Shown here piece after piece: positions 14,472 through 15,969 of a stretch of DNA of 41,986 nucleotides. Source of the DNA: Psychrobacter piechaudii. Lineage in GTDB: Bacteria > Pseudomonadota > Gammaproteobacteria > Pseudomonadales > Moraxellaceae. The notes under the pieces are model-generated. The model worked only from the letters and a program-made list of their open reading frames with translations. It searched no databases and was not told the origin of the DNA. Position numbers and translations under genes: made by a program. Each line of letters opens with the position of its first letter. The stretch's first letter is position 1. The stretch covers positions 1 through 41,986 of the forward strand of contig NZ_FUGE01000080.1 of NCBI RefSeq assembly GCF_900162825.1, read 5' to 3'.

Positions 14472-15188
14472 TTAGTTGCCCTCTTTTACGAATAAGTAGC
14501 CCTTACTACGTACGGTTTTAATACGTTTTGGGTTTTCTGGATCATCGCCAATTTTTGGACGAATACGTGAAATACGCACGTCGATTGAACGGTCTTGACC
14601 ATCATACTCAATACCACGTAGACGCTCAAAGATGTCTTCACGAGACAAGATACGACCTGCGTTAGAAGCCAATAACCATAGAAGATCATATTCAGCACTG
14701 GTGAAGTCAACTAACTCACCGTTTAGAGTCACTGAGCGGCCACCATTATCGATAACCAACTCACCAAACTCTAAACGCTGTGGTACTTCTTCAGAAGGTA
14801 CATTTTCAGAACGACGTAATAAGGCACGGATACGAGCCAATAGAACGCGCGGCTGTGCAGGCTTAGCCACATAGTCATCCGCACCCATTTCTAGACCCAA
14901 TACTTGGTCCATGTCTTCTGTACGGGCAGTTAACATCAAGATAGGGCTATGATAGTGTGGGCGTACTTCACGACAAACCGTCAAACCATCGCTACCTGGC
15001 AACATCACATCTAGAACTACCAAATCAGGTTGTTCATTAATGATACGGCGAATCGCACGGTTACCATCGGTTTCGATAGCCACATCCATACCATTCTTAA
15101 CCAAATAATCTTGGGTTAACATGGCCAGACGCTCATCATCTTCAACGATTAAAATTCGTGGGGTTTGCTCTTCTTCACTTATAGACAT
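14472..15188 (-). CDS. bfmR: Response regulator BfmR
   Basis: 238-residue OmpR/PhoB-class regulator. The receiver domain has acidic pocket VEDDE, phosphoacceptor Asp60 in LVVLDVMLPG and Lys in DDYVAKPAQ. The winged-helix DNA-binding domain carries LNGELVDFTSAEYDLLWLLASNAGRILSREDIFERLRGIEYDGQDRSIDVRISRIRPKIG-type sequence, which I recall as nearly the same in Acinetobacter BfmR. That protein is a master regulator of envelope stress and biofilm genes. A TGAGGAAA site precedes the ATG. The gene is transcribed first, with bfmS behind it. Confidence 0.93.
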   Translation of the reverse strand: MSISEEEQTPRILIVEDDERLAMLTQDYLVKNGMDVAIETDGNRAIRRIINEQPDLVVLDVMLPGSDGLTVCREVRPHYHSPILMLTARTEDMDQVLGLEMGADDYVAKPAQPRVLLARIRALLRRSENVPSEEVPQRLEFGELVIDNGGRSVTLNGELVDFTSAEYDLLWLLASNAGRILSREDIFERLRGIEYDGQDRSIDVRISRIRPKIGDDPENPKRIKTVRSKGYLFVKEGN

Positions 15189-15330: not shown

Positions 15331-15356
15331 AAAAAACAGCCTAGTATAGGCTGTTT
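15331..15356 (-). terminator. Terminator of the atp operon
   Basis: AAACAGCCTA and TAGGCTGTTT form a perfect 10-bp stem with loop GTA; on the minus strand it is followed by T6. It is 197 bp beyond the atpC stop because a MITE-like element (15369-15493) lies between. Confidence 0.85.
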
Positions 15357-15368
15357 GATTATTTTGTT

Positions 15369-15493
15369 CAGGGTAAACGCACACTTTTAGGAATTCTATT
15401 TAAAATCAGATAGTTATGAATTTAGATTTTTATTTTCTAAGTTTATAAGTTACTGAAAATATTAATGTTTTTTAAAAGTATGCGTTTGCCCTG
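15369..15493. mobile_element. MITE-like element, 125 bp, between atpC and its terminator
   Basis: Terminal inverted repeats of 20 bp (15369-15388 and 15474-15493) match at 18 of 20 positions, beginning CAGGGTAAACGC on one side and CAGGGCAAACGC on the other. The AT-rich interior has no reading frame. The flanks TTATTTTGTT (15359-15368) and TTATTTTGAT (15494-15503) match at 9 of 10, as a target site duplication would. No transposase with these ends is in the window, so the parent family is not known. Confidence 0.75.
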
Positions 15494-15552
15494 TTATTTT
15501 GATAAGCAGTTAACACTTACTCAACAGTTGACGCTGTTTGGTGTAGAGTACC

Positions 15553-15969
15553 TTACGCACGGTTACGATATTTTCTAATCGTTTGTAGCTGTGCAACAGA
15601 CTCTGCTAGTGAGGCTAATGCAGCGTTTGTCTGTAGAGTTTCTGACTGGTTGGCAAGCATCTGTTCTGCTTGTTTACGAGCTTCAATAATTTTCGCTTCG
15701 TCTAAGTCGTCTGCACGTACTGCAGTGTCTGCAAGTACGGTAACTAACTTAGGCTGAACTTCAAGAACCCCACCAGAAACATAAATCACTTCTTCGCTAC
15801 CATCAGGTAGTTGGATTCTCATTGAGCCCGGCTTTAATAGTGTAATAAGCGGGGTGTGACCAGCTAGGATACCCACTTCACCTTCACTACCCGTCGCAAT
15901 TAACATACTGATCTCACCAGCATATATCTCTTCACGAGCACTAACTACTCGGCACTGTAAGGTTGCCAT
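15553..15969 (-). CDS. atpC: ATP synthase epsilon subunit
   Basis: Rotor subunit of F1 that couples the gamma stalk to the c ring and can inhibit hydrolysis. The 138 residues show the N-terminal beta sandwich (MATLQCRVVSAREEIYAGEISMLIATGSEGEVGILAGHTPLITLLKPG) and a C-terminal helical hairpin (DLDEAKIIEARKQAEQML...). Normal length. It is the last gene of the atp operon, 151 bp behind atpD, with a strong hairpin in the spacer. Confidence 0.97.
   Translation of the reverse strand: MATLQCRVVSAREEIYAGEISMLIATGSEGEVGILAGHTPLITLLKPGSMRIQLPDGSEEVIYVSGGVLEVQPKLVTVLADTAVRADDLDEAKIIEARKQAEQMLANQSETLQTNAALASLAESVAQLQTIRKYRNRA

Follow-up and report, generated by a model that had tools for sequence, protein, structure and literature searches.

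The window (the whole 41,986-base stretch of DNA analysed here) has an AT-rich segment with inverted ends between atpC and the terminator behind it. How did the segment come to lie there, and has it changed the end of the atp operon? It is very probably a non-autonomous MITE with ISAs1-type ends, which an ISAs1-family transposase acting in trans would have placed between atpC and its terminator.

Structure of the element and its insertion site

The features of the locus are collected in Table 1. The preliminary description claimed an AT-rich element of 125 bp with 20-bp ends agreeing at 18/20 positions, surrounded by a 10-bp near-duplication (9/10). Both claims hold: the ends are complementary at 19/21 positions, extending the repeat to 21 bp (the first 20 at 18/20), and the flanks TTATTTTGTT and TTATTTTGAT are alike at 9/10 bases. 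The element has a GC content of 25.6% and a coding capacity of at most 41 codons; it lacks a transposase, as does a MITE. As single-stranded DNA it folds into a hairpin at -22.1 kcal/mol (z -6.9), and none of 200 shuffled sequences folded equally well.

Table 1. Features around the insertion behind atpC, in window positions
Feature	Position	Strand	Basis or remark
OmpR-type response regulator, next gene downstream	14472..15188	-	best NCBIfam match RstA, below curated cut-off
Stem resembling an intrinsic terminator, after the end of atpC; T run on minus strand	15334..15356	-	terminator scan
Target-site duplication, left copy, TTATTTTGTT	15359..15368	none	flank alignment
AT-rich MITE that forms a hairpin and has no room for a transposase	15369..15493	none	length 125 bp
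Terminal inverted repeat CAGGGTAAACGCACACTTTTA	15369..15389	+	end comparison
Terminal inverted repeat CAGGGCAAACGCATACTTTTA	15473..15493	-	end comparison
Target-site duplication, right copy, TTATTTTGAT	15494..15503	none	flank alignment
atpC, F1 ATP synthase epsilon subunit, gene before the insertion	15553..15969	-	NF001847, 5.5e-59

The element starts 59 nt beyond the atpC stop codon (15553-15555, minus strand). Because atpC and the response regulator gene are both on the minus strand, the element falls within the 3' UTR of the atp transcript and not between convergent genes. The terminator-like stem was detected on both strands (two sites, against 0.2 expected). It lies 196 nt from the atpC stop at present, and subtraction of the element and one flank (125 + 10) leaves 61 nt, in agreement with the roughly 60 bp claimed previously. 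The associated proposal that a MITE-like insertion split atpC from its terminator is likewise supported. The terminator was neither lost nor broken; it is intact and has merely moved 135 bp further from the stop codon.

Folding of the transcribed strand as RNA (232 nt, -56.2 kcal/mol, z -6.9) predicts that the element forms one long hairpin while the terminator stem is retained. No T run follows directly after the MITE hairpin in the direction of transcription, where the scan detects the old terminator only. The MITE itself was considered as a terminator; lacking an adjoining T run, this candidate is unsupported. In the predicted transcript structure, the unchanged terminator of atpC would be preceded by a 3' UTR hairpin of about 125 nt. 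Termination should then be as before, with a longer atpC 3' UTR, and the effect of the insertion on the host is most likely none, or slight, acting on mRNA 3'-end stability.

The strength of the RNA hairpin predicted for the transcribed strand (with the same z), together with the preserved terminator stem, might also mean that the element has been retained for a benefit to the atpC transcript, acting as an additional terminator, protecting the 3' end or taking part in RNA processing. The last of these has been proposed for the Neisseria MITE. A survey (PMC9208149) finds ISAs1-family insertions over-represented between convergent genes and suggests a role of 3' regions; the atpC site is not convergent. 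We consider such a function improbable, since a T run is missing next to the hairpin and the atpC copy is seen in one genome only.

Copies, empty sites and a turned copy

The element was sought in 105 Psychrobacter genomes, including that of the window (G000, a draft of 300 contigs). Matches were found in seven, and four of the 105 contain full-length or nearly full-length copies, 12 altogether: three in G000, four in G046, four in G073 (Psychrobacter sp. bin7) and one in G032. The G000 copies other than the window's own are at C185:28624-28748 (98% identical to it) and C140:2011-2135 (96%). Identity to the window element is 92-99% in G046, 90% in G073 and 74% in G032. The matches in the other three genomes (G025, G065 and G088) span 26-33 bp only, and an additional partial match of 33 bp in G000 is the end of an ISAs1-type copy on contig C102. 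On plasmids, blastn found no match to the MITE at E 0.01.

All 12 copies are flanked by 10-bp target duplications. These are perfect for nine copies, whereas the window's own copy and a G046 copy show 9/10 and another G046 copy 8/10; the G032 element was taken one base beyond the match, its terminal base being changed there. The duplicated sequences vary between sites, save for one site common to a G000 and a G046 copy. Several copies at different sites with duplications, two of the 12 sharing a site, are what characterises a MITE.

A query consisting of atpC and the DNA downstream of it matched 102 of the 105 genomes. Eleven loci were inspected, that of the window and the ten best-matching loci besides it, and the remaining 91 were covered by the element search alone, which found no full-length copy in their genomes. 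In G038 (P. pasteurii, 97% identical to the query), G046 (92%), G039 (92%) and G073 (88%), GA and a single TTATTTT(G/T)AT come directly after the terminator stem, and there is no element. The empty site reads TTATTTTGAT in G046, G039 and G073, identical to the right duplication and one base off the left, and TTATTTTTAT in G038. At the six other inspected loci the element is absent from the 262 bases viewed, which have diverged too far for exact placement of the site. The copies in G046, G073 and G032 are located away from their atpC, and by these searches the atpC insertion is seen in G000 alone among the 102 genomes with an atpC match.

The presence of empty sites in the nearest sampled relatives shows that the insertion is later than the split from them, and the occurrence of the terminator stem in all four empty-site genomes shows that the terminator is older than the insertion. 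Judged from these alignments, the atpC insertion is recent; it would have occurred in the ancestor of this strain after the separation from P. pasteurii and the other close relatives. The age order, the multiple copies and the empty sites behind atpC envisaged in the preliminary description are thus all borne out, and the outcome that would have contradicted that description, one copy in every genome and a lack of empty sites, was not observed. At the site of the C140 copy, the element is absent in G046 and G039. For two G046 copies the flank matches of relatives, obtained by flank search only, stop short of the base adjoining the element.

Many weak inverted repeats are to be expected in AT-rich intergenic DNA, and the segment could in principle have arisen as a repeat by chance, or belong to the fixed structure of the atp operon end without ever having been mobile. 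The window contains six inverted pairs matching at 18/20 or better and bounding an element of 60-400 bases, the present one included, of which only the atpC element carries a 9/10 flanking repeat. Pairs of 10-mers 125 bases apart that match at nine or ten bases occur at five of 41,836 window positions, including that of the element. The copies at other loci and the duplications around every copy speak against chance or a fixed part, and the empty sites in four relatives refute it; there is practically no doubt on this point.

An IHF-like sequence, AATCAGATAGTTA, lies inside the element at window positions 15404-15416 (element position 36). It is found at the same place in 11 of the 12 aligned copies, as judged by eye, the aligned place in G032 being a misfit. 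A match exists somewhere in all 12 elements and nowhere in the 1218-bp insertion sequence (IS) of G038 described below. The call was made with what we take to be the IHF consensus, and since in addition the DNA is AT-rich and the element family has a single origin, this putative site is only a lead.

The site occupied in two genomes lies upstream of hpt, which encodes hypoxanthine-guanine phosphoribosyltransferase. The copy on C185 of G000 (L013:1501-1625) and that at 2,593,595 in G046 (L007:1501-1625) have an identical site and 10-bp duplication, and their flanks, 1.5 kb each, are 99.1% and 99.3% identical. The two elements have opposite orientations and, once one is turned, differ at one of 125 bases. 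Upon comparing C185 (L203) with G046 in 500-base bins, the identity was found never to fall below 98.6% between about 26.5 kb and about 37.8 kb, where the comparison ends, except in the bin holding the element, which is at 91.0%; the DNA to the left of about 26.5 kb is at 89-98%. The hpt locus has probably been exchanged recently between the lineages of G000 and G046. No element was seen at this position in G039.

Turning in place is the simplest reading of the opposite hpt-site copies, two independent insertions at the same base being unlikely. From these sequences we lean, by a small degree, towards the view that elements of this family can turn round while staying at their site, which might happen by exchange between the outer 13 identical end bases, or by excision and rejoining by the transposase. 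The main rival to turning is an assembly error, as G000 is a draft in 300 contigs. The ends differ at base 14, however, and since the longest exact inverted repeat is therefore 13 bp, assembly from k-mers with k of at least 21 should not turn the element. The turned copy offers a simple test case for in-place inversion of a MITE.

Insertion sequences with the same ends

Searching G000 with the 21-bp ends returned the six ends of its three copies and one more, at C102:1202-1222. The latter closes a 321-aa open frame that matches the ISAs1 family transposase NF033564 (8.3e-98). This copy is disrupted at its 5' side; its alignment with the G038 element starts at base 261 and shows 97% identity. 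It is the sole copy of an ISAs1-type transposase detected in G000, and a second mobile element has probably interrupted it. The stretch C102:1-255 is a different repeat, which has 14 further matches in G000, many of them at contig ends; five cover the whole stretch at 95-96% and nine are partial at 72-81%.

The G038 element of P. pasteurii is 1218 bp long, bears these ends at either side and lies between two copies of GCCTATCTAT, a perfect 10-bp repeat. An IS with ends starting CAGGGCAAACGCA, as sought by the preliminary description, was thereby found. The transposase frame of this element is interrupted. Eight further ends are present near contig edges in G073. Six of these were read (all except those on C209 and C224), and three each run into the two sides of an ISAs1-type IS, a pattern to be expected if a multicopy IS had interrupted the assembly.

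The MITE resembles these elements at its ends. Bases 1-22 match one end of the G038 IS at 21/22 and bases 100-125 the other end at 23/26, while the last 33 bp are 94% identical to the end of the C102 copy. The core of about 80 bp has no recognisable match in the G038 IS. Likeness to the IS at the ends only, around a core of no recognisable source, is the usual picture for MITEs. Members of the ISAs1 family typically duplicate 8-10 bp of their target, and the 10-bp duplications of the MITEs and of the 1218-bp element are within this range. The ends common to the MITE and an ISAs1-family element identify the former as a MITE of that family.

We infer that an ISAs1-type transposase, acting in trans, moved the element. 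In this reading the AT-rich core is enclosed by two terminal inverted repeats of ISAs1 type, and a transposase of the family, supplied from elsewhere, would recognise these ends and insert the element with a 10-bp duplication. No intact parent transposase was found, the G000 copy being cut into and the G038 copy disrupted in its frame. At E<=1e-60, a limit set by us that leaves out more distant relatives, transposase matches occur in two of the 105 genomes, G000 and G038. Plasmid records matching the transposase number 858, each with less than 60% identity.

As an intact ISAs1-type transposase was not found in G000, some other transposase, sharing these ends only by coincidence, might instead have mobilised the MITE. 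This is very unlikely, given that the ISAs1-type element of G038 has the same ends and the same length of duplication, and that a 1236-bp Flavobacteriales element with these ends and this duplication length holds a relative of the transposase. The latter (L128, from a Flavobacteriales MAG) came to light among the matches listed for the 20-bp pattern CAGGGYAAACGCAYACTTTT, which occurs in at least 116 stretches in genome_contigs against about two expected by chance, assuming equal base frequencies. Its transposase relative has 38% identity. Other transposase matches among the 80 loci listed are L160 (the G038 element), L091 and L109. By sequence comparison, these ends are common to two elements of ISAs1 type that have transposases of only 38% identity.

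These 80 loci, among the matches listed, were examined for paired ends with at most four mismatches per end. Within that set, 31 loci have 33 inverted pairs; the flanking repeat reaches 9/10 or better in 21 and falls short of this in 12. The 21 well-flanked pairs among the matches listed comprise four from Psychrobacter and 17 others, one of which is the L128 element. All but one of the 17 come from MAGs titled Bacteroidales, Flavobacteria/Flavobacteriales, Marinifilaceae or Lutibacter (ten of these 16 from just three MAGs), and a MAG titled Acetofilamentum supplies the remaining one. Of these 17 elements, again among the matches listed, 12 are shorter than 350 bp. As far as the names of the MAG contigs are trustworthy, short elements with these ends occur outside Psychrobacter, including in Bacteroidota MAGs. 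Elements of 144-212 bp with ISAs1-type ends and flanks matching at 9 or 10 of 10 bases are seen at L101, L105, L107, L111, L116, L129 (6000-6210), L130, L136 and L155, in MAGs titled Bacteroidales, Flavobacteriaceae or Lutibacter.

Comparison with known elements

The Psychrobacter MITE belongs to a well-known kind of element, and its insertion behind atpC is by itself ordinary. What the locus adds is an insertion at a core operon's 3' end, dated and proven by empty sites, a link between the MITE and its IS family, and the use of the same 20-bp ISAs1-type ends by short elements in MAGs assigned to a remote phylum. No published description of the Psychrobacter MITE, or of ends shared with a distant phylum, was identified in a search of mostly open literature that was based on keywords, not sequence, and did not include ISfinder.

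The Correia / NEMIS elements of Neisseria have ends different from those of the Psychrobacter MITE. They are likewise small intergenic MITEs, and their 155-bp form has an IHF site, with binding in vitro reported (PMC2229807); the Psychrobacter element has an IHF-like sequence. Three Aeromonas MITEs have been submitted, according to PMC5756416. MITEAba12 of Acinetobacter and Moraxella (PMC6382973) is also a Moraxellaceae MITE of similar size (113 bp, with an 81-bp central region), and its identity to the parent IS is confined to the ends. It differs in having ends GGCTTTGTTGCACAAA, a 9-bp duplication and a proposed parent, ISAba12, of a different family. The ISAs1-family IS (NF033564), represented by the 1218-bp element of P. 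pasteurii, resembles the MITE in its ends and its 10-bp duplication, whereas the MITE lacks a transposase, and its core of about 80 bp matches nothing recognisable in the IS.
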